From Pigoraptor vietnamica (lineage: Eukaryota; Opisthokonta; Filasterea): a stretch of DNA of 22,999 bases. How positions within the stretch are numbered: position 1 is the stretch's first letter; each line of letters begins with the position of its first letter. The notes under the pieces are model-generated. The model was not told where the DNA came from. It did not search any database and saw only the letters and a program-made list of their open reading frames with translations. Location: NCBI GenBank assembly GCA_943704525.1, contig CALSCQ010002494.1:1-22999 (forward strand). Reading direction: 5' to 3'. A program made the position numbers and the translations under genes. This document shows, one piece after another, positions 4,042 through 22,963 of the stretch.

Positions 4042-5245
4042 TTACTGGTCTTCCTCGAGGAATGCCATGAAATCCTGCTTGTTCTCAATCGGCGAGCGCG
4101 TCGGCCGCCCAAGGTCCTTGCGGCCACCCTTGTTCACGCGAATCTCGAGAAGCGCCGGTCCCTCCGTCTGCTTGAGCTCGGCCACCTTCTCCCGCGCCTC
4201 GGCCACAGTCTCCGCCACGGCCGTCCACTTGTAGCCGCACGCCTTGGCAATGTCGCGGAAGTTGAGGTTGTCGCGGAGCGCGAGCGTGGGCTGTCCACCG
4301 ACAGAGTCGTGCGCGCCGTTGTTGATCACGACGTGCTTGAAGTTGCGCGGCTGCGTGTTGCCGACCGTCACCATCGCACCCATGTGCATGATGAGCGCGC
4401 CGTCGCCGTCGAGGCAAAAGACCTGGCGCTGGGGCTTGGACCCCGCAATGCCGAGCGCGATCGCAGACGCGTGGCCCATCGAGCCGACCGTGAGAAAGTC
4501 CCTGTCGTGGCCGTGCTTCTTGGCGACGCGGTACTCAAACAGCTCGCGCGAGAGCATGCCCGTGGTGCCGACGACAATGTCGCGGTCGCCGAGCCCGTCC
4601 ACGATGACCTTGAGCGCGCCCTCGCGGTTCATCTCGAACTTGCCCTTGTCCGAGGGGAGCTTGTAGGGAAGGAACGTCTGGCGGCGCACGAGCACGGCAT
4701 AGGGGCCGAGGTTGCTCTCCATGTAGCGCACGGCCTGCTTGATGACCTTCTCGGCGCCCTCTTGGAAGTCGGGGAGCACCTGGAACGGGATGTTCAGGGA
4801 CGCGAGGAGGCCCGGCGTCGACTGCGGGTGGAGAGGGACGCGTTAGGCTCAAATGAAAGACGGTCAAGTGCAAAGGGAAGAAGAGAGTTGAGATTTTTTT
4901 GAAATGCACGAAGTGCTTAACGTATGGTCCTTAATCCAATATAGGTTCCAAGTGCACGAAAGGCATGTTGTGCGTGTGTTTTGAAAGTGTGTGTGGGAAC
5001 CCAGCCCACCTGTCCCTGGATGAGGTGCTGGGGCTCGTCCTTCTTCCCGGGCTCACCGCGCCAACCGACGAGCAGGAGCATGGGAATGCTGTACACTTCG
5101 GGAACAGCGAGCGACATGAGCGGATTCACAATGTTGCCGAGCCCAGAGTTCTGCGGGCGAAAAACTCGGCCCGTTAGTCACATCCAATGCACGCTAGTGT
5201 TGACTGATGAAATCGAAGGAAAGTCAAGAGAGAAGTCAAGCGATA

Positions 5246-5319
<74 letters not shown>

Positions 5320-5765
5320 AGGAAAAAAAGGCGACGCGAACCCACCTGGAGATAGACCATGCCGTACTTGCCCGTCGCAAGGTGATAGCCCGCAGCGAGC
5401 GCAACGGCGTTGCCCTCGTTGGCCGTGATGACGTGGTTCGTCGCCGGCGTGTTTGCGGTCACGTACGCGCAAAAATCCTTGAGCAGCGAATCCGGCACAC
5501 CGCAAAAGTACTCTATCCCGTTGCGCTTAACCGAATCGTAGAAATCCTTCGGCTCGAGGAAATCGCGCACGAGTTCCGTGAAGGGCTGCTTCTCTTGCTC
5601 GGCGGCCGGCTGCTGGGCGACGACGGGGGTCGTGGACACATTCCGCGTCACTTCCATCGTCACGCGCTGGGGAAGAGCAGCGCACACACGCGTTGCAGCG
5701 CGGATGTGGCCGCGCGCGACACCTCGCGAGACGCCGCCGGCAGCACGAACAGCAGTGCGGAGCAT
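4042..5765 (-). CDS. Phosphonopyruvate decarboxylase, thiamine-diphosphate dependent
   Basis: Exons on the minus strand: 5765-5346, 5150-5010, 4821-4042 (stop TAA), all joined in phase 0, 446 residues. The enzyme converts 3-phosphonopyruvate to phosphonoacetaldehyde plus CO2, the irreversible step that pulls C-P bond synthesis forward towards 2-aminoethylphosphonate. Residue E117 in [13 protein letters not shown] is the expected cofactor-activating glutamate. The ThDP/Mg motif runs from GDG (326-328) to NN (354-355), and [13 protein letters not shown] is characteristic of this family. The first 45 residues are rich in Arg and Ala with few acidic residues, like a mitochondrial presequence; without them the length matches bacterial enzymes of about 380 residues. 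Phosphonopyruvate mutase and the aminotransferase are not in this window. A sulfopyruvate decarboxylase is a less likely reading. Confidence 0.9.
5248..5317 (-). repeat. 70-base poly(A) tract (poly-U in the transcript) in intron 1 of the decarboxylase
   Basis: Seventy consecutive A on the plus strand, followed by A-rich sequence up to about 5330. In the sense of the gene this is a long T tract about 15 to 100 bases downstream of the 5' splice site, so it is not at the usual polypyrimidine position next to the acceptor at 5151. Confidence 0.95.
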
Positions 5766-5924
5766 GCTTGAGACTGAAAAACAGACTGGATTGGGGCTGC
5801 GGATTCGAATGCACGCGACAACGGAGTGTCTGTTTTAAGGTGAGAGTGAATGGGGAGTGAGATCAGCCATCGTGGAGTGTGGCCACAATACCCACTCACT
5901 CTCGCACACACACACCGCACGCAA

Positions 5925-6478: not shown

Positions 6479-9400
6479 TCAAATCTCGCTCGTGAGGCCG
6501 CCCATCGTGTCGTCGAGCACCCACAGGAACATGTCGGCATCCGTTGGACCCGGCGGAGACGCCACCATCGACGAGTGCGAGTGGGGGGACAGCGAGTCGA
6601 CATGCGACGGAGGCGTCAGCGCATCGAACGACTTGCGGGGACCAGAGAGCACGTCGTGGAGGAAGAGGTCGGATGAAGGCGATTCCGAGAAGTACGACGA
6701 GTGATGGGTGGCGTAAGAGACGGGCGGCGACAGCGAGTCCCGCAACGAAAAGTCCGACGCCGGCAGCGATGGGCTCAACGAAGGGCGTCCGCTTCCACCG
6801 GCGTGCGCGGGCATCTGAGGCACAACGACGTCGCCTGGAGAGCGATCAGAAGGCGGCGACTGCGAGGGGCGGCCGCCGGGCTGCGGGTCCGCGCACACGC
6901 TGCGCAGCTTGTTCGATCCGCGCGATGCGTTGGTTGCGAGCGTCCAGTCGTTGAGGAGCGCAATGACTTCCTGGTGTCCGTGGGCCGCGGCAATTTGCGC
7001 GGGGTTCTTTTCCTGATTGTCTTCGAGGTTGCGGTTCGCAAAGCGAGAGAGGAGAAGGCGCACGACGTCGGCGTTGCCCTCACGCGCAGCCAAATGCAAC
7101 GGCGTCTCTCCCTGCAAATTTCAAAGACATTTTCAGTAAGAGAACACAAAAGAGCATATGAGTTGCAAAAATGACACATATGCCTCACAATAGCTTCTCT
7201 CCCTAGCCGAAACATGATGCGACGCCAAGACACTCTCGCACAGAAATTTCAGCAACGCACCTTTGCATTCGTCGAGTTGATGTCGACCTTCTTGTCCTTC
7301 TCAAGGAGTTGCACAACCAGCGGAAGACAGTTGACGGCGCACGCCCAGTGGAGCGCATTCCATCCCTTTTTCGTCACGCACAGCACGTTCGCCCCGTACT
7401 CAATCAACCGCGACGCAAGGTCCGTCTGGTTCGCCTTGATCGCACACATCAGCGCCGTCTCGCCATCCGAATCCGCGGCGTCGAGCAGCTCCGTGCACAC
7501 GTCGGTGCTCGACGGAGGAAGGTGCGCCGACGGCCGGGACCGCGCAGCACGTACGAGCACGTCCACGCAAGCGACCGACCCGCGAGCGGCGCATTCGTGC
7601 AGCGCTGTGCGGCCATTTCGGTTAACGGCAAGGAGATCCGCGCCCCGCGCCGCCAGTGTCGCCACCAGCTCGGCGTGGCCGTTGGCACACGCAATGTGCA
7701 ACGGGGATTCGCCAAGGTGGTTCTGCGCCGAGGGGTTCGCGCCCTCGGTAAGCAAGAGCGCGGCAATCTTAGTTGTGCCCTTTTCGGCGGCAAGGTGGAG
7801 AGGCGTGTTGCCGCGCCCGTCCTCGCGGTCGAGGGAGCTCGCCGTCGCGCCGCGTACGGGATAGTTGCACTGCACGCGGGAGCTGTCAACAATTCGCGTC
7901 GCGCTGATAGACACGGCGACGGCCTGGACGTCCCCCTTGAGCACGACCAAGTGGAGCGGACTCAGCATGACGTCGTCCGGCTCGGCCTCGTCCGTGTGGA
8001 ATATGACGACGTCGGTCGTTTGCACATCCGGGATGGCGGGGGGACCTGACGCACGCACGCGCACAGACGACTGCAGTCAGCAAACGTACTCAACACGCAG
8101 CACCGGCTCTCATTTTCACTCCTTCGGTGTGTGTAATCGTTCACCGCCCAACCAGATCTTCACATTGTCCCAACCAACACTTCAACTCTTCACATGCAGC
8201 GCCCCACTACTCACCATATTCCAGCTTGATCGCCTTCGCAGGCCGCTCCACTTCGCCCATCTCGTGGGTACCCGCGCCGCCCGCCGCACTCCCGCCAGCC
8301 TCAGAGTCCCTGCGCCGCTTCCTGTCCTCGTTTTTCCGCATCTGTTTGACGCCATACGCAGCGCCTCCCGCGACCACAGCGACGCCGCACACGCCGAGCA
8401 CACAGCCGACGACAATGCCGACGACATTCACACCGGAAGAGTTGGGTAACGGCGTCGGGGTGGGCGGCACCGTGTTGGCCAGCGTGACGGGCGTGAGGCC
8501 GAATCCGACCTCGCTCGACAGCACGCGTGCCTGGTTCATTACGGCGAGGAAGAGCGCAATGTCGACGGGGCGACGGAAGGGAGAGTCCGGCGCCGCATCG
8601 AACGACAGGCGCACTTGTGTCTTGAAGCGACTGCAGGCGCGGCACATGGTTTTGAGAAACGAAACGCAACACGGCAAAGGAACGGTTCCACAAGGACCAA
8701 GCTCGCATGAACAATCACGGGAGGGACAAAATAAAAAAGAAGAAGAAGAAGAAAGAAACTCACTCGGGTGAGACGTCGTCCGACGGCGACGGGTCCGGGA
8801 GGATGAACGCCTGCGCCGCCTTGATCGTGGCAATGCCGTTGAGCAAGATGCCGAGATTTCGCTGGAACGAGCGCCGCTTGTCAACGAACATGGTGGGCAT
8901 CATCTCGACGACAAGGTCAATGTCCCCTATGTGGTCCATGGGAGTGTCGCAATCGCCGCCGTCAAAGCCACACTCGCGCGACTTGCACAGCTGCACGCAG
9001 GCGAGAACGAGGGCTTGAGCCAAACGCATTCGCAAGGACAACGGAGTCACGCGCGCATGCTACAGGACAATTGCATGATCCCACAGCACATTCATGCTGA
9101 AAAAAAAAAAAAGAAACGCACACGCACGCTGGACACGCAAATATTTCTTACCTGATCGCAGATGCCGTCCTTGAATCGCACCTCGCACGCCATGTCGCTC
9201 GGGCACGCCTGCGTTCCGCTATCGCGCCTTCCGCCGGTGCCGCAGTCAATCGCAGAGCTGAACATGCACTCCGCCGACCCGCACGATGAGACTTCGTTGG
9301 GGGAGCAAATGCCGTCGGCCATCATCGACTCGCAGGCCGTTCTGTTCGGACAAGACGACCAGGCCTTCTCCGCCATCGACTCCATGCAATCGAGTCCGTC

Positions 9401-9556
9401 CCAGTTGCACGCGGCCGTGTTGCACATCGAGTCGCACACCTTGTTGCCGTAGAGTTGCTTGCACGCCTGCGCGACCGACAGATGGAAGAGAGTGAGACAC
9501 GACCGATTCGATTATAATAGAGCGGCACGTGAATCGAGTGAGGAGTCCGATAACAC

Positions 9557-9600
<44 letters not shown>

Positions 9601-9614
9601 AACACACACCATGC

Positions 9615-9646
<32 letters not shown>

Positions 9647-11035
9647 ACAGAGATCAGTAAGGCAAAACGCACAGGTTTCAAACAAACGCACCGGAACCGG
9701 GCAATCCGACCAGTTGGGCTCCGCCGCCAGCGTCAGCTTCCATTTCTCGCAATCGAGTCCGTCCCAGTTGCACGCGAGGTGGTTGCAGTCGCGGTCGCAC
9801 ACGCCGTCCGCAAACACGGCGCGGCAGTGGTCCGCGTTCGTGCAGTTGTCCCACGTGCGCTCGACGAGCGACGTGAAGCCCTGCGGATCGCAGTCAAAGC
9901 CGTCCCAGTTGCACACAAACGAGTCGCACTTGGCGTCGCAGTGGCTGTCCGCGTAGAGATTGGAGCACTCGCTGTGAGAGCAGAGCGACCACTTTGACGG
10001 GTCGTTGAAGAAGCGCGTCGACAGCACCGTGCGGCAGTCCTCAAAGTCCCACATGCACTCGTAGCGCATGCACTGGTCGTCGCACACGCCGTTGTTCATG
10101 GCCGATTTGCAGTAAACTGCCGTGGGGCAGTGTGCCCACAGGTCGTCCGAAGCCCCGGACGCAGACGCGCCGACGCAGTCGCCCGCGTCGTAGTTGCACA
10201 CGTCCGAATTGCACTCGCGGTTGCATATGCCGTTACCGGCAAGCTGCGAACAGTGGGACAGGCACAGGCCGGTGTCGCTGCTGGACGAGCACTCGCCCGA
10301 GTCGAAATTGCACTCGCGCGTGTTGCAAATCTGGTCGCACTGCGAGTTGTTGGCCATCAGAGCGCAGAGATCGCGATAGAGGCACGCGTCGAGGGTCGAG
10401 GGCGCCTTCGTCGTGTCGGACGGCGTCGACGCACCCACGCAGTCCCATCCGTCGTACATGCACTGCGCAGAGTTGCACTCGGCATCGCACGCGCCGTCCG
10501 CAAAACGAAAGCGGCAAAAGTCCGACAGAGCGCACGACGAGTAGGACGAAACAGGCGGCGCGCCGTTCCGGAAGCAATCGAGGCCGTCCCAGTTGCACGC
10601 CGTCTTGTCGCACTCGACGTCGCAGATGCCATCGCCGCTTTTGGCACGGCACTCGTCCGGCGTGCCGCACGCGTCCCAGCGCAGCGTCCCCGACAGCGTC
10701 CCCGACGAGGCGCAATCGAGGCCGTCCCAGAGACATCCGCGCGTGTTGCATTCCGAATTGCACACGCCATCGCCCCACCGATATACGCACATGGCAGCCT
10801 GAGGGCAGTCCGCCCAGCTCCAGTGCACCGACGGGAGCATGCAGTCGAACCCGTCAAAATAGCACTCGCGCGAGTTGCACGACGGGTCGCAGATGCCGTC
10901 GCCCGAGTGCATTTGGCAGTATGTTTCCAGCGCACACCCGTCCCAATTGCGCTCGTCGCTCTGCGCCAATGCAGCCGCAACCGCTAGGGCGAACAACACG
11001 ACGCGCCACATTGACGACGCGCTCAACAACGCCAT
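6479..11035 (-). CDS. Notch-like receptor: LNR array, NOD-like segment, membrane span, ankyrin repeats
   Basis: Exons on the minus strand: 11035-9692, 9466-9152, 8990-8764, 8630-8215, 8045-7261, 7111-6479 (stop TGA). All phases agree and give about 1239 residues. A signal peptide ends near residue 26 (an alternative ATG at 11011 still leaves one). Twelve LNR modules occupy about 32-567, with the pattern GDGxCDxxCNxxxCxWDGxDC. Residues 568-680 resemble the Notch NOD/NODP region: DIDLVVEMMP, then RPVDIALFLAVM. One membrane span lies at about 697-721, followed by KQMRKNEDRKRRR. Seven to eight ankyrin repeats cover about 785-1085, including NALHWACAVN and ETPLHLAAREG followed by LLSRFANR, which match the last Notch repeats closely. 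The tail of about 150 residues is Ser/Pro-rich and ends DADMFLWVLDD. No EGF repeats and no clear RAM W-x-P motif were seen. By family knowledge it should be a cleavable type I receptor that releases a nuclear fragment; ligand and processing are inferred. Confidence 0.88.
9557..9649. repeat. (CA)n-rich microsatellite in intron 1 of the Notch-like gene
   Basis: Interrupted CA repeats (GT in the sense of the gene) lie between the 5' splice site at 9691 and the acceptor at 9467. The interruptions (AAACACA, ACCATG) suggest an old tract. Confidence 0.9.
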
Positions 11036-13160: not shown

Positions 13161-13944
13161 GTTGCCTTGATGGCCCCGCGACGAAACGGATCAGTTGTGT
13201 CGACGGAAGCATTGGATTCGAACTGCGAAGGCATAGAAAGGGATGTGGACAGCAGTCTCAGAGTGTCGTTCGCATTGGCGCTCATATAACAGCAGAGAAT
13301 GGACATTTTGTGCACAATACGGCCACGCCAACACGGCGAATGAGTGCCGGGCGCAGTGCCACGCACCACTGTACCACAAACCGAAGAATACACCCTCACG
13401 CAAACAGCTTTTTTTCACAGATACAGTTCTGGAAATCATTATAAGTTCGCACATCCACAATACGCACACTCGAGCGGCGCAAAATCACACACCCCCACAC
13501 ACACCGTACTGATGGTTTGATCGGCGGAGCGGCGCCGAACTCACACTGAGTGACTACTCATAACTGCTGTTTTTTGTTTCAGCCTTTTTTGAAATGACGG
13601 TCAGGCATGTACGCCACATTCCACGTTAATTACCTTGGCACAAACCCTGTGAAAACTTGTCGCTGCGGAATGTGTCCAAGCATAAAGTGTGTGGTGTGAG
13701 AAGAACTCAGCTGTCGAAGGCATGAAACGGCCCGGCAACAATAGCGTGGTGGACGTTCCGAACAAAAGTAACATAGGGTTCCGTTGAACCGTAACAATAT
13801 TTTACGATTGTTCCAAAACAGGACCGACGCTTTGCACGTGTGAGCGGCACGTGCAACACTCTGAGTAGGGAAAAGTAATAAATCAGAAAATCGGTTTCTC
13901 TCCTTTCTCGACGGACAAAGCTCCTGAAAACTCGACGAGCAGAA
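13161..13944. other. Divergent intergenic region upstream of the F-box relic and HSPA14
   Basis: The two flanking genes are transcribed away from each other, so both promoters should be here. Sequence near 13840-13944, just before the HSPA14 start, is A/T-richer than its surroundings. No TATA box with strong flanking context, heat-shock element array or coding exon was identified. Confidence 0.45.
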
Positions 13945-14859
13945 ATGGGCGACGAGGGGGAGTCCGTGGGCGTGGGCATCTCCATCGGTGGCACGTACTG
14001 CTCGGTCGCAGTGTGCCGCGGCCGCACGGCCGACATTGTCTGCAGCGAGGACGGCGACCGTGTGACGCCGGCACTCGTCTCCTTTCTCAGTGGCCATGTG
14101 AGTGCTGTCCTTGGCATGGGTTGCACTCACGACGTGTGTATACTTTGCGTTAGTGGGCATGTTATTGGTTCGCCTTCACTGCGTCCACCGTGGCTAATTG
14201 CAAGCCTTTGTCGCCCCCTAATAGGAGCCTGCCATCGGCAACGCCGCCAAGAGCGAGCTTGTTCGCAACCCCGCGAACACGGTGTATGGCACTCGCCGCA
14301 TTCTCGGTCTCCCGTTTGATGATGTTGCCGTGCAAGCGCTAAAGAAGCAGCTCACCGCCTCTGTGGTGGAGCACCAGGGACAGGCTGCGTTCGAGGTGTG
14401 TCATTCGTGTGCCATGCCGCAACTGTTCGCACGCGTTTGCTTGCTTTCATTGCCTCTCAGAGCTGATGGGGATTCAACCCCTATGGCCTTCTATTGAACT
14501 TGACGCTTCGTTTTGTGGCTGTTCGTGACATACGAATGACGTCTTCTGCCGAACCAGGTCGAGGAGGACGGGGACAGGAAGACGCACACGGCTGCCGAAG
14601 TGACGACACTTCTCGTGCGGCGATTGAAGGAGATTGCCGAGCAGAACGTTGGGTCGCAAGTGACAAGCGCCGTCCTCACGGTGCCTGTGGGCTACAAGGC
14701 GGAACAGCGCGCGGCCCTCAAGGCGGCTGCGGAGGGCGCGGGGATTCGCGTTCTGCGCATCATTAACGAGCCCACTGCTGCCACGCTCGCGCATGTCCCT
14801 GAGTTGGGGCGCAATGACAACAAGAATATTGTGGTGGGTGGGGTGTTCGTCTCACGCGC

Positions 14860-14902
<43 letters not shown>

Positions 14903-16612
14903 CGTGCCTGCGTGCCTGCGTGCGTGCATGAATGTGCGGTGGTGTTCTCATGCGTCGATGACAGGTTTTCGATCTCGGTGCGTCGGCCTTGGAAGTGACG
15001 GTCGTTGCGGTGCGCGGCGGCCTCTTCCGCATTCTGTCGACCGTGTCAGAGACGTCCCTTGGGGGCTCTACCTTCGACGAGCGACTGGTGGGTCTTGCGG
15101 TGTGCGCGTGTGCGTCCTTCCATCTACTTATATTGCTCCATAGAGCAGTGATTTTTGTGTTTTTATTTTTATTTTTATTTCTTATTTTTGAAGGAGTATG
15201 CCAGCCGTGCGTGTTGTCGAGACAGTATCTGTTCGAAGAAATGGCACTTATTTTTCGCGTGTGTGTATGTCCCAGGTAAATCACTTTGCGCAAGAATTCA
15301 AGCGCAACCACAAGAACGACATCAGCGGAAACAAGCGCGCGTTGGCCAAGCTGCGCCTTGCGTGCGAGACGGCGAAGCGGACGCTGTCGTCGTCCGCTGT
15401 GGCGCACTGCTCGATCGAGTCGCTCGCGGAGGGCATGGATTTCAACTCGAACGTCAACAGGTGCGCTATAAGCCATGCATATACGTCCCCAGCATGCACG
15501 CACGCATTTTTGAAAATCGCACGCTCGCATGGCACGCACACCTGCACACATGCGGGTTCATATATACTCAACAACAAGCATTTGCCTATTAGACACTGTG
15601 ACCGACACCCTGACGTCGTTTGCGATATGCAGGAGTCGTTTCGACATGATGTGTGCGGACTTGTATCGCCAGTTGGGAGAGCCCATCGACCGAGCACTCG
15701 CTTCGGCGGGTCTCACGGCAGAGGACATCACCGACGTCGTTCTCGCCGGCGGCGCATCGAAAATCCCGAAAGTCAGGACTACAGTCACTGACAAGTGCGT
15801 GGCATTGCACGTATTTTGCTTGTGCTGCCGTTGTGGTGTACACTCACGCACACGCTATAGACCAACGCGCAATTTCACGCAGACACGCACGCACCCCACC
15901 CCAATCGCACGTACACACACACACACACACTCACACACACTCGCACACGCACACACACACACACACACTCTCACACACTCGCACACGCACACACACACAC
16001 ACACACTCTCACACACACACACACACACGCACGCACGACTAAATGGGTGCATCCGTTGAACACGACATCTTTTCTCTTTCGTGCTTCAGGTTCCCGAAGG
16101 CCGATGCGAACAGTCGCATCCAGCCTGACGAGTACTTTGCCATCGGCGCTGCGCATCAGGCTGCCCTTCTTGTCGAGACGGACGACCACGAGGCAAACGA
16201 GGCGCTGAACACGGCGCCGTGCGTGTCGGCCGACATTCTTCTGCAGCTCGACGGCGGCGAATTTGTCACCATGATTGGTGCACACACGCCAGTGCCCGCT
16301 CGCGCCGAGCGCATCTTCGCCGTCCCCGACGGCGCGGAGGGCATTGTCGTCCGCGTGTTCGAGGCAAGCCCTTCCGGCGGGAAGAAGCACCTCGTCGACC
16401 TTGCGCTGAAGCACGCGCACCACCACACGGCTGCCAAAGACGCCCCGAAGGAGGCGCCCGAGTCGCCGTCGAAGCCGGCACTGCAAGGGGACGTTGTTGT
16501 GCACTGTGATGTGACACGCGAGGGCCATCTCCGCGTGTCGGCAACGGAGCGAAAGACGGGCGCGCACGTGCGTGCGGTCGCGCGCGGCCTTCACAGTGCC
16601 GGAGGACACTGA
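13945..16612 (+). CDS. HSPA14: Ribosome-associated atypical Hsp70 (HSPA14/Ssz1 type)
   Basis: Exons: 13945-14097, 14225-14395, 14558-14833, 14965-15087, 15276-15460, 15633-15794, 16090-16612 (stop TGA). All phases agree and give 530 residues, against about 509 in human HSPA14. Partners of this family are Zuotin/DNAJC2-type J proteins; together they form the ribosome-associated complex that helps nascent chains fold. Landmarks: GISIGGTY at 11-18, where the usual catalytic Asp is Ser13; LTVPVGY in the nucleotide-binding domain; INEPTAA; DLGASA at 203-208 in place of the DLGGGT of active Hsp70s; [13 protein letters not shown]; and a short C-terminal domain without an EEVD tail. The segment [19 protein letters not shown] and the SLAEGMDF loop follow HSPA14 rather than Hsc70. 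The exon 3 donor could be at 14831 instead of 14834. Several introns carry TG or CA tracts. Confidence 0.92.
14861..14898 (+). repeat. (TG)n microsatellite in intron 3 of HSPA14
   Basis: Nineteen TG units run into TGCG and TGCC variants, ending about 65 bases before the acceptor at 14964. Confidence 0.95.
15911..16034 (+). repeat. Compound CA repeat in intron 6 of HSPA14
   Basis: CA tracts are interrupted by CTCGCACACG and CTCTCACAC. A unit of roughly 45 bases containing both interruptions is repeated about twice, so the tract grew by duplication of larger blocks as well as by single-repeat slippage. Confidence 0.85.
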
Positions 16613-17106: not shown

Positions 17107-17178
17107 CACACTGACCCTCTCATTACATGAGGCATCACAACACACAAAACCGACGGAAGTCTCTTGCGTCGATAGAAA

Positions 17179-19530
17179 ATGGCTCCAATTCGCGCCCTTG
17201 GTTTGTTTATCGCCGCCGTCCTTGCGGTATCTCAAATCGTGCGTGCGGACAAAGATGCAAATTTCACCGCCGCCACTCTTGCCATTTGCGATCCCTTCGG
17301 CAGCGGCTCTCCTAACATCGTCCACGGGACCGTCTCCGGCGACACCATCGTCGCCATCACGAACAGCCAGTCGGGCTTGCAAATGGGGTCGTGCAACCTC
17401 GCGTACCTTTACGGCAACGCCACCGTCGTGTCAATCGCCTGCGGGGACTTCCTCTCCCAAGGGATTCAGCTCATCGCAGTGTATGCCGGGGGCAGCAATG
17501 TGACTGTTCTGAATGCGAACGGATGCGCCGTTGTCGCCCAGATTTTGCTCGACAGCCGCGTGCTCTCCGGTGCCCAAGTTCAGCTTGCCAGCGGGGACGT
17601 GGACGGTGACGGCGAGTTTGAGCTGATCGCCGCGGCGGGACCCGCTGCTGCATCTGCGCACGTGGGCGTTTACAACGTGAGCACGGGATTGCTCAAGTAC
17701 GACATGTTTGACGCGTTTTCGGGTGCATCGTACGCAAACGGAGTGTCCGTTAGCGCCGGGGATGTAAACGGCGACGGGGTCGACGACATAGCCGTGGGCC
17801 AGTTGGGCGCCAATCCGCTTGTGCGCATGCTCAAGTACGCGTCCGGCGCCTTCTCGCGCGCCATCGATGTGACGTCATTTCAGGCGCTCGCCCCCTTCTC
17901 CACTGCAGGCGTGCGCGTCGCCGTGTGCGCCGCGCCGCCCTTCTCTTCCGGGAGCGTGCTCGGCGTTCCCTTTGCGCGCGCCAAGAACGCCGCCGTGTAC
18001 GTCGCAACGCTCAACTCGACGCTCGCGAACGTCGTCTCGTTCGCCGACGTGACGTCCCCGGAACTTGCCAGTGCGGTGGCATCCTCGAACGTCGACGTCT
18101 CCCTCCTCGTCTCGGGCTCGCAGATGACCTATCCCGCGGCGCCGAGTACGGCCACGTCGAAGTTCGTGCAGCCGCCCCTCTTCCCGGCGTTTATCGCCAC
18201 GGTCGATGCGGCCGCACTCGCGGCTGCAAACGTCGCCGTCCCGTCCGCCTTCAGCGACGTCTTCTTTGCTTCGGCGTCGAACCAAACCGCCGCGCTCAAA
18301 GCAGCCGACGCCGGCTCGCCCTCGTGGCCATCGCAGCTCGTTAACATGCCGTACTTCGCGCCGCCCCCTCGCAATTACAAGAGCCCCTACTACATCTACC
18401 TCTCCTTCGCGAACGTCACTTTCGACTTCAACGTCGGCGCGCGCGGCAACAGGGCAATGTGGGCGCAGGACCCTTCGAGCCAGTGGTACCTCCCGTCCAA
18501 CGAGGCGCGGTATACGGGGTGGGGACCACTGCCGGCACAGTTCCCGCCCGTTCCTTCCGTCGATTCCCTCCCCGCCGTTTGGCTTCAGGAGCGGTACGTC
18601 GCGTCGATCGCGAACCTCGTCGGCTGGACCGACTACCAGCACCATCACGTGCCCGTGTGGGTGCCGTCGAGCGACGTGTGGGAGTGGAACCCCGTCCAAG
18701 TGGGTGCGCACACGTCCGGACTCGACTGCTCCGACCTCACGGCTTGGGGATGGACGTACGGCTTTGGCCTGTCGATGACGGCGGAGACGGCGGACCAGGG
18801 TGCCCTCGCGGGGGTCGTGGCGCCGTGGAACGGGCTCTTTCTCAATTTCCAGGTCGTCCAAGCGAACCAGTCGCACTACGGGGAGCTCATCGCGGCGCTG
18901 CAGACGGGCGACATGCTGTACATCAAGGGGTGTGCCACGTGCACCAACGTCACGCACGTGATCTCGTGGCTGGGGCCGACGGGCAAGTGCGCGTTCGACG
19001 GAGAGTGCCCGCCTCTCGTCCTCGATTCGTACGGCTTTGGGATCGTCGACAGCAACGGCATTGTTGTTCCGAGCGGCCCGCACATCCGGCCGTTCCTCAG
19101 CGACTCGTGGTACTTTAGCTCCCTTTCGCACGTCGTCCGCCTCATTCAGCCGACGGGCTTCAACTACACGGCCAATGCAATGGCATCCAGCGCCTCGCCC
19201 GTCGCCTCGGCGACCGTTTCCGCGACAACGGCCGCTATTTCGCCGTCCACCACGTCGAGTGCGACGAGGGAAAGCACCGCAACAGTCGCTCTTCAGAGCT
19301 CGTCGACGCAAGCGCACGCTTCGTCCGCGTCCTTTGTGCCGGCGTCGTCTACGGCAGTGCCTCCGCCACCCATTCTTCCCGTGTTGCGCTCGTCGGGATC
19401 CAGCCTCAGCGGCGGTGCAATCGCAGGGATAGTGATTGGGTGTGTTGTGGGCGTCGCACTCATCGCGCTCGGCGCGTGCTATTGCGCCCGCGGCCGTCGT
19501 CTGTCAGGCCCTCGTAGCGTCGCTGTGTGA
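17179..19530 (+). CDS. Type I membrane protein with FG-GAP repeats and an NlpC/P60-like cysteine-peptidase domain
   Basis: A single exon of 783 residues. A signal peptide covers about 1-23. The N-terminal part looks like an FG-GAP beta-propeller with two clear calcium loops: D140-V-D142-G-D144-G and D195-V-N197-G-D199-G. After a low-motif region, residues about 455-660 resemble NlpC/P60 peptidases: DYQHHH at 485-490, SGLDCSDLT with the presumed nucleophile C517, LQTGDMLYIKG, and THVISWLG with H593; H635 is a candidate third residue. A Ser/Thr/Ala-rich stalk (about 665-735) suits heavy O-glycosylation. A membrane span at about 746-768 is followed by a short basic tail (RGRRLSGPRSVAV). Expected location is the cell surface. 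NlpC/P60 enzymes usually cut peptidoglycan stem peptides, so handling of bacterial walls is possible but unproven. The lack of introns contrasts with most neighbours and would fit acquisition of at least the peptidase part from bacteria. Confidence 0.82.
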   Translation: MAPIRALGLFIAAVLAVSQIVRADKDANFTAATLAICDPFGSGSPNIVHGTVSGDTIVAITNSQSGLQMGSCNLAYLYGNATVVSIACGDFLSQGIQLIAVYAGGSNVTVLNANGCAVVAQILLDSRVLSGAQVQLASGDVDGDGEFELIAAAGPAAASAHVGVYNVSTGLLKYDMFDAFSGASYANGVSVSAGDVNGDGVDDIAVGQLGANPLVRMLKYASGAFSRAIDVTSFQALAPFSTAGVRVAVCAAPPFSSGSVLGVPFARAKNAAVYVATLNSTLANVVSFADVTSPELASAVASSNVDVSLLVSGSQMTYPAAPSTATSKFVQPPLFPAFIATVDAAALAAANVAVPSAFSDVFFASASNQTAALKAADAGSPSWPSQLVNMPYFAPPPRNYKSPYYIYLSFANVTFDFNVGARGNRAMWAQDPSSQWYLPSNEARYTGWGPLPAQFPPVPSVDSLPAVWLQERYVASIANLVGWTDYQHHHVPVWVPSSDVWEWNPVQVGAHTSGLDCSDLTAWGWTYGFGLSMTAETADQGALAGVVAPWNGLFLNFQVVQANQSHYGELIAALQTGDMLYIKGCATCTNVTHVISWLGPTGKCAFDGECPPLVLDSYGFGIVDSNGIVVPSGPHIRPFLSDSWYFSSLSHVVRLIQPTGFNYTANAMASSASPVASATVSATTAAISPSTTSSATRESTATVALQSSSTQAHASSASFVPASSTAVPPPPILPVLRSSGSSLSGGAIAGIVIGCVVGVALIALGACYCARGRRLSGPRSVAV

Positions 19531-20665: not shown

Positions 20666-20869
20666 TTCTCACCATAGGAGGGACAACAATGCCCAAGTAG
20701 TGCAGCATTCTCTCGCGATGGCACACACCGAACCGTTCGTGCGCCTCTTTGCTTTCTTTCCCAATCGCGGCTTTCTTTACTGTGTGTGTAACGTTACATC
20801 TGTTACTCGTATGTTACTTGCCTTCCGTGGTTTTTCTGTCTGAAGTTGTTTCACTGGCCGTGTATGTGT
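20666..20869. promoter_or_regulatory. Short head-to-head promoter between SPCS1 and ULK3
   Basis: Only about 200 bases separate the two divergent start codons. The interval is a plausible bidirectional promoter. No TATA box facing either gene was seen. If SPCS1 has an extra upstream exon, the interval would be shorter. Confidence 0.5.
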
Positions 20870-21694
20870 ATGCATTCGCCCTCGACCGACGCAAGCATGT
20901 CCGCGCGGTCACCGGCACCCGTGGGCATCGACGACTATGTGCTATTGGAAAAGGCAGGCAGCGGTTCGTACGCTGTCGTTCACCGGGCCAAGCACAGAGA
21001 GACTGGCGCCGTCGTTGCCATCAAGTGCGTGAATCGCCGGAAGATTGGAAAGAACGGCGTCGATAACCTCGTAGCGGAAATATCGATATTGCAGCGGGCG
21101 AATCACCCGCACGTTGTGCGACTCATCGACTTCCGATGGGATGCGTCGACAGTATGGCTCGTTATGGAGTGGTGCGGGGGAGGGGACCTCGCGCGTTACC
21201 TGCGAGCGCGTGGCCGCCTTCCGGAAGCGACGGCGAGGCACTTTCTCAGACAACTCGCGCTCGCGCTCAAGTTTCTTCACTCGCACGGAATAGTGGGTGG
21301 CGCACTGTTGTATGTGGGCGTCTGCGTGTGTTATGTGAGTGCATGCATGTGACAGTCGTGTGTGTGTGTGTGTGTGTGTGAGCTTTTGCTGTGGCATGTG
21401 TGAGTGTATGGGGATATGACTGTGTTGTCAGTGTGCATGAGTGTATTGACGTCTCCATTACTTCATGCTCCGTTCGCAGGCTCACTGTGACCTGAAGCCG
21501 CACAACCTCCTTCTCCTCTCTCGCGAGCGGCCGATTCTAAAAGTCGCCGACTTTGGTTTTGCGCAACACTTGACACAGGAAGAGAAGGCCGTGAACTTGC
21601 GCGGCTCGGTGAGTGCACAGGCTACTCCGCACAATGTACTGCCAACGTTGTCGTGTTTATTCTCATATCCCACACGCATGCACCCACACGCACG

Positions 21695-21751
<57 letters not shown>

Positions 21752-22717
21752 CAGCTCCTTTACATGGCACCAGAAATGCTTGCGGCCTTCATGTCCCGGC
21801 GTCCCTCTCCTGAAAACGCCGACAATTCCTCAAGCGTCGCCTCTCCGCCGACGCAAGGTTACGACGCTCGCGTGGACCTCTGGTCCGTGGGCGTGATACT
21901 CTACGAGGCCATATATGGACGTGCACCGTTCGACTCGGCTTCGGAATCGGACGTTATTGCAAAGCTTCAAGCGGACAGTCCAGTCGCTGTTCCGGAAATG
22001 GCGGGCGGTGTGCCTGTCTCGCTCAGCTGCCGGGATCTAATCGGTCGCCTGCTGCAGCGGCGACCCGAAGAGCGCATTTCGTTTGAGGAGTTTTTCGCGC
22101 ACCCCTTTGTCGATCTTGATCACATGCCGAGCGCCGACTCGCTCGATCGCGCGATTGAGATGTTGTCGGACGCGACGGCGAAGGATAGGGACGGGAATGT
22201 GAAAGAAGCGCTCGTGTCGTACACGCAGGGCATCGAACACTTGGTGAGCCGAGTGTGTCTGTGTGTGTGCGCGCGCGTGCGTGTGCTTATGCGTATGTGG
22301 GAGGATGGGATGAGAGCGTGGTGTTGTAGCTGTACAGTTTTTCTTACGTCGTTGTTTCCCGGCCGCACAGCTCGCCGCGGCGCAGTTCGAAACTGACCCG
22401 CAACGTAAGGAGGGCCTTCGTCGACAGCTCGAGCAATATCTCGATCGTGCTGAAACGCTCAAGGCGAAAGTGCGCGGAAAGGAGTCCGGGGATAGTAAGG
22501 AAGGAAAGGGCGCCTCTGTGCCGGTAAGCGACAAGCCCGTGCCTTCGTCTGTCGATGGCGTTGTCGGCGGAGAAGAGGCCTACGCACGGCCCACGAGCGA
22601 CGTGCGATTGAGTGACCTTTCGGCCACGAACGCGAGTGTTGCGGCCGCAGTGTACGAGACGCAAGAGGTTGGAGTTTATGTCTGCCATGCCGTTATTGCC
22701 TCTCTTCTGTGTGTGTG

Positions 22718-22765
<48 letters not shown>

Positions 22766-22963
22766 TGTCTTGTGGTAGTGTGACAGCAGAACGAGTTCTG
22801 CACCCTTAATGTGCGTTCGAGAGCTGGAACACATCACTCTGGCTCATGCGTCGGGCTGCCTGTTATCCGTGGCAGGCGTCGCGCGCAGACCGCCTGGGAT
22901 CGCCGCATGACGCGCTCGTGCGTTACCGGAGGGCCATTTCGCACTGGATGAACGCATTGCAAG
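20870..22963 (+). CDS. ULK3: ULK3-like serine/threonine kinase with two MIT domains (3' end outside the window)
   Basis: Exons: 20870-21292, 21480-21608, 21755-22243, 22371-22667, 22876-22963, then an intron running off the window. About 475 residues are visible. The kinase domain spans about 23-303: GSGSYAVV glycine loop, VAIK with K52, E70, HCDLKPHN with catalytic D145, DFG at 165-167, YMAPE and DLWSVGVILYEA. Its HCD lacks the usual Arg before Asp, as in human ULK3 (HLDLKPQN). RGSxLYMAPEM and FAHPFVDLDHMPS also match ULK3. MIT 1 covers about 310-385 (RAIEMLSDATAKDRDGNVKEAL), and MIT 2 starts near 432 (DALVRYRRAI). By family knowledge, MIT domains bind ESCRT-III tails; ULK3 acts in abscission timing, autophagy and Gli regulation. 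Starts at 20846, 20864 or 20897 are also possible. The exon 4 donor (GTTGGA at 22668) is unusual but gives a continuous MIT helix. Confidence 0.9.
21699..21748 (+). repeat. (CA)n microsatellite in intron 2 of ULK3
   Basis: About 25 CA units end only six bases before the AG acceptor at 21753-21754, so the repeat itself takes the place of the normal polypyrimidine tract. Confidence 0.95.
22708..22768 (+). repeat. (TG)n followed by (TGCG)n in intron 4 of ULK3
   Basis: About 11 TG units pass directly into about nine GCGT units. It lies between the donor at 22668 and the acceptor at 22875. Confidence 0.95.

Follow-up and report, generated by a model that had tools for sequence, protein, structure and literature searches.

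A predicted Notch-type receptor with an array of LNR modules and without EGF repeats in Pigoraptor vietnamica

The origin of the Notch receptor is open, as its domains lie on separate genes in Monosiga and are found whole in one choanoflagellate. The latter, Mylnosiga fluctuans, was reported to have a Notch with EGF repeats, LNR modules, a transmembrane span and ankyrin repeats (EGF-LNR-TM-ANK) by Richter et al., 2018 (PMC6040629), whose rule for 'strong evidence' of Notch includes the EGF repeats. In that study, neither NOD nor NODP was detected in any choanoflagellate or sponge of the set. Previously, a 'Notch-like' EGF-LNR-TM-ANK gene with very weak similarity to Notch had been described in Monosiga by Gazave et al., 2009 (PMC2770060). 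In Ministeria and ichthyosporeans, domains partly related to Notch occur without the typical N-terminal domains (Shalchian-Tabrizi et al., 2008), and NOD/NODP motifs have been claimed across eukaryotes and even in bacteria (Vlachakis et al., 2020; PMC7649014). We analysed a stretch of 22,999 nucleotides from Pigoraptor vietnamica (contig CALSCQ010002494.1, hereafter the window) and describe a minus-strand gene at 6479..11035 that a first-pass annotation had read as a Notch-type receptor. The same annotation took Notch to have long counted as animal-specific, with its domains scattered in Monosiga, a picture that is outdated in view of the reported Mylnosiga Notch and the Monosiga 'Notch-like' gene.

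We consider it probable (about 0.7) that this gene encodes a Notch-type receptor, homologous to animal Notch over a core of LNR modules, heterodimerisation segment (HD), membrane span and ankyrin repeats, and with twelve LNR modules replacing the EGF repeats. The gene runs from the ATG at 11035 to the TGA stop at 6481-6479 and is predicted to have six exons and 1239 residues, so that the coordinates and length annotated at first were exact. The Notch order of the parts in one gene, also claimed at that stage, was upheld by the spliced frame, Pfam, the PDB search, the GC content at third codon positions (GC3) and a tree of ankyrin repeats. At the sequence level, the support consists of the domain order, the NOD half of the HD, the last ankyrin repeats, and the presence of CSL, presenilin and ADAM-type genes in the genome.

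The ectodomain begins with a predicted signal peptide (residues 1-24; 10964..11035), located by hydropathy, and continues with the LNR array (residues 34-567; 8949..10936), which spans introns 1 and 2 and holds 12 modules, number 11 being degenerate. A profile search of the full protein agreed with the LNR modules seen initially, as Pfam PF00066 matched 11 stretches at E 2.1e-101. Similarly, a pattern search of the protein gave 11 canonical modules, and the twelfth, degenerate one was read by eye at residues 487-523. In 8/12 modules a Trp precedes the first Cys by three residues (10937-9242 of the window, minus strand), and the repeat unit therefore seems to take in the linker.

The HD-like segment (residues 568-683; 8468..8948, minus strand, across intron 3) was assessed by PDB search, a sub-threshold NOD match and hhalign. 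When the last LNR module and the HD were searched together against PDB, 13 sequences were found at E <= 1, and the top seven were Notch1, 2 or 3. These Notch1-3 chains were matched with E values of 6.9e-18 to 4.2e-9 in alignments that start in the LNR, where the last module aligns with a Notch LNR, and extend into the HD; a large share of the score against them is that of the LNR itself. The next match after Notch was GNPTAB (E 1.1e-4). For the HD alone, a search of 24736 Pfam models at E <= 10 returned NOD (PF06816) and no other family, with E 0.0012 and 18.6 bits for a 49-residue piece and E 0.0076 for a 127-residue piece, both under the cut-off of 20 bits. Local alignment of the HD with that of human Notch2 gave a score of 55, which was reached by 0/2000 shuffles. 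In hhalign comparisons with a Notch1/2 profile, the HD aligned over 81 columns at E 0.004 and its NOD half at E 0.0011, in both cases with 0/150 shuffles reaching the score. The NODP half was collinear with Notch in the PDB and hhalign alignments. A weak hydrophobic segment was also observed by hydropathy within the HD, at residues 599-617.

The ankyrin block (residues 794-1088; 6935..7968, minus strand, across intron 5) comprises about eight repeats and was recognised by the Pfam ankyrin models, the best of which matched the full protein at E 9.3e-43. Its last three repeats (6935..7371, minus strand, also across intron 5) are the counterpart of ANK5-7 of Notch. Among 44 comparison repeats (7 from human Notch, 6 from fly Notch and 31 from ankyrin), the best matches of repeats A6, A7 and A8 were human Notch ANK5, ANK6 and ANK7, with margins over the best ankyrin repeat of 13, 12 and 2. 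Taken together, the last three repeats scored 183 and 158 with Notch and up to 144 with ankyrin segments, and the last four repeats 209 and 182 with Notch as compared to up to 189 with ankyrin segments. The motifs NALHWACAVN, ETPLHLAAREG and LLSRFANR, which had been singled out as close to animal Notch, do lie in these last repeats, and the score of 183 with human Notch1 compares with 64-119 for 18 other repeat triples. Nine alignment columns were common to the last-three triple and both Notches and present in at most 1/17 controls; substitution of the controls for the triple gave 0-3 such columns. In a tree of 21 triples that set these repeats against Notch and other ankyrin proteins, the last three clustered with human and fly Notch with a support of 100/98. 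The tree drew Notch from two or three animals and, as comparators, overlapping ankyrin-1 and ankyrin-2 triples, one NompC triple and the protein's own A2-A4; with overlapping comparators and few Notch sequences, it is of small size, and the controls lack independence.

Between these two regions, hydropathy indicated, besides the segment at residues 1-24, a strong one at residues 692-724, and the membrane span was placed at residues 697-723 (8348..8428, minus strand; maximum 2.79). It is followed by a basic juxtamembrane stretch read from the sequence, KQMRKNEDRKRRR (residues 724-736; 8309..8347, minus strand), a possible nuclear localisation signal. After the ankyrin block comes a Ser/Pro-rich tail with 21% Ser and 14% Pro (residues 1089-1239; 6482..6934, minus strand), which terminates in the acidic-hydrophobic segment DADMFLWVLDD, possibly an activation domain.

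Additionally, we searched the 32.5 Mb assembly (1395 contigs, the window being the whole of contig C1027) with profiles, exon by exon. CSL was found on C653, where LAG1-DNAbind matched at E 2.1e-12 over a stretch interrupted by one stop, and BTD at E 1.2e-6. Of eight presenilin matches, seven were on contig C92 (best E 2.1e-16). Two Reprolysin_5 proteases were over the cut-off, on C869 and on C68, the latter with one internal stop, and HExxH motifs were read in these loci. LNR gave 13 matches, 10 on C1027, 2 on C1171 and 1 on C854; as they are confined to these three contigs, there was no sign of a second Notch. Those on C1171 and C854 were considered as further Notch genes and rejected because by eye they have other gene neighbours: the LNRs of C1171 adjoin a sequence which we take to be GNPTAB-like, and that of C854, itself confirmed by profile, lies near a HEYGH motif that is presumably part of a protease.

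Several results weigh against a Notch assignment. With the HD alone as query, phmmer found no Notch chain in PDB at E <= 10, the alignment with the Notch1 HD scored 29, a value reached by 344/2000 shuffles, and the hhalign probability was just 8.4% for the HD and 20.8% for its NOD half. The NODP half gave nothing at E <= 10 when searched alone in Pfam, and in hhalign it did not rise above shuffles (38/150 reached its score). No furin-type R-x-K/R-R (S1) site was found in the HD, the sole such motif of the protein being intracellular, at residue 732. The RAM region of Notch carries a hydrophobic-W-hydrophobic-P motif, and no xWxP motif of this type was found anywhere in the protein. In agreement with the core without EGF repeats that had been annotated, Pfam listed no EGF model for the full protein at E <= 0.05, nor a NOD or NODP model, and the EGF-like cysteine pattern had no match in it. 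The whole ankyrin block scored higher with ankyrin-2 and ankyrin-1 segments (321 and 291) than with human and fly Notch (261 and 248), A8 was only narrowly ahead of the ankyrin repeats (43 vs 41), and in a PDB search with the whole block Notch1 ranked below more than 50 ankyrin and designed chains. Ankyrin and designed repeat proteins were also at the top with the C-terminal part of the block, and such chains lead these lists because the scores of many repeats sum. From the genome, disintegrin and nicastrin gave no match at E <= 0.001 in the exon-by-exon search, in which no control genome matched either. For Mastermind the only match, on C1032, had E 0.18 and 17.3 bits against a cut-off of 25, a threshold at which 4/14 control genomes match. 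It was rejected as a Mastermind gene, since no MamL-like frame was seen by eye.

Based on the Pfam, alignment and hhalign shuffle results, the NOD half of the HD is Notch-like and the NODP half just lies in the right place. The NOD-like segment of the first-pass annotation thus stands for its NOD half, with its PF06816 match and no shuffle reaching its score, and not for its NODP half. Likewise, the Notch-like ankyrin block holds for the last three repeats, whereas repeats 1-5 are generic and the whole block favours ankyrin-1 and ankyrin-2. A generic protein with ankyrin and LNR repeats was rejected, as NOD is the sole Pfam family for the HD and the last three repeats fall in the Notch clade. 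The protein is outside the strict published definition of Notch, because the EGF arm, the W-x-P motif and a furin site in the HD were not found, and is a Notch homologue by its core.

Regulated intramembrane proteolysis is the probable mode of action of the receptor. The last LNR modules would clamp the HD and conceal a cleavage site close to the membrane, and a pull, a ligand or the loss of calcium acting on the LNR array would open this clamp. An ADAM-type metalloprotease could then cut outside the membrane and presenilin within it, after which the fragment with the basic stretch, the ankyrin repeats and the tail would enter the nucleus and act with CSL. We infer every cleavage, the trigger, nuclear entry and CSL binding, and take the order of the steps from animal Notch. 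As neither a W-x-P motif nor Mastermind was found, it would be left to the ankyrin block to bind CSL, and the transcriptional output may not be the same as in animals. The lack of EGF repeats means that the known site of DSL binding is absent; either the LNR array may bind something or the switch may sense calcium or force.

How the EGF-less form arose can be read in two ways. In the first, to which we give a little less than an even chance, an EGF-LNR-HD-TM-ANK ancestor lost its EGF repeats secondarily and the EGF arm was replaced by amplified LNR modules; the receptor would then function as described above. The choanoflagellate Mylnosiga and animals do carry EGF repeats (PMC6040629). EGF repeats are abundant elsewhere in the present genome, and the LNR number is four times that of animals, which means that the ectodomain has certainly been remodelled; the protein itself, however, holds no EGF-like remnant. 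In the second, which we put forward tentatively and hold to be rather less than probable, the gene branches outside choanoflagellates and animals and keeps an ancestral LNR-HD-membrane-ankyrin core, and a CSL-wired proteolytic switch would have existed before EGF repeats and DSL ligands joined it. If true, the EGF arm came later and made a cell-cell receptor, and LNR arrays were the first sensing arm.

Another possibility, which we regard as unlikely, is that the protein is a Notch homologue without nuclear signalling, acting as a receptor for adhesion or prey contact that is tied to the cytoskeleton by its ankyrin repeats. The missing W-x-P motif, the lack of a credible Mastermind and the generic, ankyrin-1/-2-like first part of the ankyrin block would fit such a role, but the basic stretch at the membrane, the Notch-like last repeats and the acidic-hydrophobic end would not, and the genome encodes CSL and presenilin. 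Independent assembly, in which shuffling joined LNR modules, a membrane span and ankyrin repeats independently of animal Notch, is formally possible for the choanoflagellate Notch too. In its favour, both LNR and ankyrin repeats are widespread modules and the genome holds a pool of other LNR genes (C1171, C854); the first five ankyrin repeats are generic, and the NODP half cannot be detected alone. We nevertheless consider it improbable, as two Notch-type features, NOD directly behind the last LNR and ANK5-7 closing the ankyrin block, would need to have originated again.

A further explanation is an artefact of the gene model, in which an LNR-HD-membrane gene and an adjoining ankyrin gene are separate transcripts. 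The model was predicted from the DNA sequence, and intron 4, which lies between the two halves, has the highest GC (0.544) and the lowest T (0.25) of the five introns. The single open frame of 1239 residues results from splicing 11035-9692, 9466-9152, 8990-8764, 8630-8215, 8045-7261 and 7111-6479. On the minus strand, exon 1 (9692..11035) encodes the signal peptide and LNR 1-9, as delimited by the spliced frame, Pfam and the pattern, exon 2 (9152..9466) most of LNR 10, the degenerate LNR 11 and the start of LNR 12, and exon 3 (8764..8990) the end of LNR 12 and the NOD-like half of the HD. Exon 4 (8215..8630) holds the NODP-like half, the membrane span and the basic juxtamembrane stretch, exon 5 (7261..8045) a linker and repeats A1-A6, and exon 6 (6479..7111) repeats A7-A8 and the tail. 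The consistent phase of the six exons noted at first is confirmed by this frame, in which 5/5 introns are GT-AG and 133-225 bases long; GC3 is 0.78-0.85 in 6/6 exons, and the GC of the introns is 0.42-0.54. The two halves are only 169 bases apart, at the GT-AG, in-frame join of exons 4 and 5, and features of Notch type stand on either side of it. The frame of exon 4 meets a stop just beyond the donor, and that of exon 5 has its first Met only within the first ankyrin repeat, which favours one gene without being proof of it. Two neighbouring genes were rejected on the basis of this join, the exon GC3 and the position of that Met, and we regard separate transcripts as very unlikely; the evidence favours one coherent predicted gene with the LNR half and the ankyrin half together.

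T-box gave 11 matches on 6 contigs (C844, C791, C1344, C123, C1365 and C854), 10 of them over the cut-off; of 6 integrin beta matches, spread over 4 contigs, 5 exceeded theirs. According to Richter et al., 2018 (PMC6040629), Monosiga and Salpingoeca rosetta lack T-box, and integrin beta was detected in only one choanoflagellate. No Wnt match was found in the exon-by-exon search of the genome, in which no control genome matched either. The unicellular look of the host, as first annotated, is consistent with these results, which fit a holozoan protist. Together with the locus on C117 that carries MNNL and a tyrosine kinase (described below), the gene content indicates a holozoan outside the choanoflagellates, probably a filasterean. 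The T-box gene on C844 looks Brachyury-like by eye. An animal source, either of the contig as a contaminant or of the genome as a whole, would suit the animal-like content (T-box, integrin beta, CSL) and is hardly credible given the 32.5 Mb genome, the introns of 133-225 bases, the GC of the contig (0.58, compared to 0.57-0.64 in 11 stretches of other contigs), the architecture without EGF and, in a search without positive control, the lack of a Wnt match.

Domains of Notch ligands were also seen in the genome. MNNL matched on C117 and C830, and DSL gave 32 matches, 31 of them on C583. In the locus C117:2000-11999, MNNL lies at contig positions 6060-6233 and a tyrosine kinase frame at locus positions 9094-9999; on one strand, MNNL is followed by EGF-like repeats, a span with weak similarity to TM_ErbB1 (E 0.021) and the tyrosine kinase (E 2.9e-37). 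This locus apparently encodes a Notch-ligand head on a receptor kinase. The locus C830:40000-47937, with MNNL at contig positions 43537-43710 and EGF-like repeats, resembles it, and this contig stops before a kinase could be reached; the module that follows MNNL here had no DSL match. On C583 (C583:22000-31999), a giant module array with the 31 DSL matches occupies contig positions 24069-31690 on the minus strand, and the frame tested there matched Teneurin-EGF with 219 bits and DSL with 212 bits.

Four other genes were observed in the window. On the minus strand, 4042-5834 encodes a TPP-enzyme C-terminal domain (E 3.2e-20), with further upstream exons by eye, and is possibly phosphonopyruvate-decarboxylase-like. 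On the plus strand, 13882-16612 is an intron-split Hsp70-like gene with long GT/AC repeats, two frames of which match Hsp70 (E 3.3e-21 and 1.4e-5). It is followed at 17176-19530 by a 784-residue frame free of introns that contains FG-GAP repeats and a sub-threshold NlpC/P60 stretch (E 0.0071), and in which a signal peptide and a C-terminal membrane span were seen by eye. The gene at 20792-22778, also on the plus strand, encodes a protein kinase domain; a frame further downstream matches the MIT domain weakly (25.3 bits, cut-off 30), and we take the gene to be possibly ULK3-like.

A Notch core outside choanoflagellates and animals is not described in the literature searched, as far as the available texts go. 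Within the same scope, which does not extend to the Capsaspora genome paper, we came across no report of a protist outside choanoflagellates with an EGF-less LNR-NOD-TM-ANK protein, and one may be in print. What appears to be new is the LNR-array ectodomain without EGF and the NOD signal in a probable protist, and likely also a branch of Notch outside choanoflagellates and animals. A fused core with NOD and without EGF would indicate that the proteolytic switch and the ligand-binding arm are separable and opens their order of assembly to testing, in an organism that also has CSL, presenilin and ADAM-type protease genes. A search rule that requires EGF repeats overlooks proteins of this kind.

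In comparison with known systems, the predicted receptor shares with animal Notch (Notch1-4, fly Notch, LIN-12/GLP-1) the LNR modules, the NOD-like HD, one membrane span, the basic stretch, ankyrin repeats ending in ANK5-7-like repeats and the Ser/Pro-rich tail. It differs in that it lacks EGF repeats, the W-x-P motif and a furin-type site within the HD, has about one extra ankyrin repeat, and carries 12 LNR modules compared to 3 in animal Notch (PMC2770060, PMC7649014). GNPTAB and the pappalysins have LNR modules in common with it, and they have no HD-membrane-ankyrin core. The filasterean Capsaspora has, according to a review (PMC4810162), a Delta-like receptor tyrosine kinase; the C117 locus likewise combines MNNL, EGF-like repeats and a tyrosine kinase, and this is not a Notch and differs from the gene at 6479..11035. 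The 'Notch-like' gene of Monosiga brevicollis is alike in its signal peptide, LNR, membrane span and ankyrin repeats, and unlike in having 1 EGF, 2 LNR and 3 ankyrin repeats (PMC2770060). The Notch of Mylnosiga, compared here by its description only, likewise comes from a unicellular animal relative and has its parts in the order LNR-membrane-ankyrin, whereas EGF repeats are present there.

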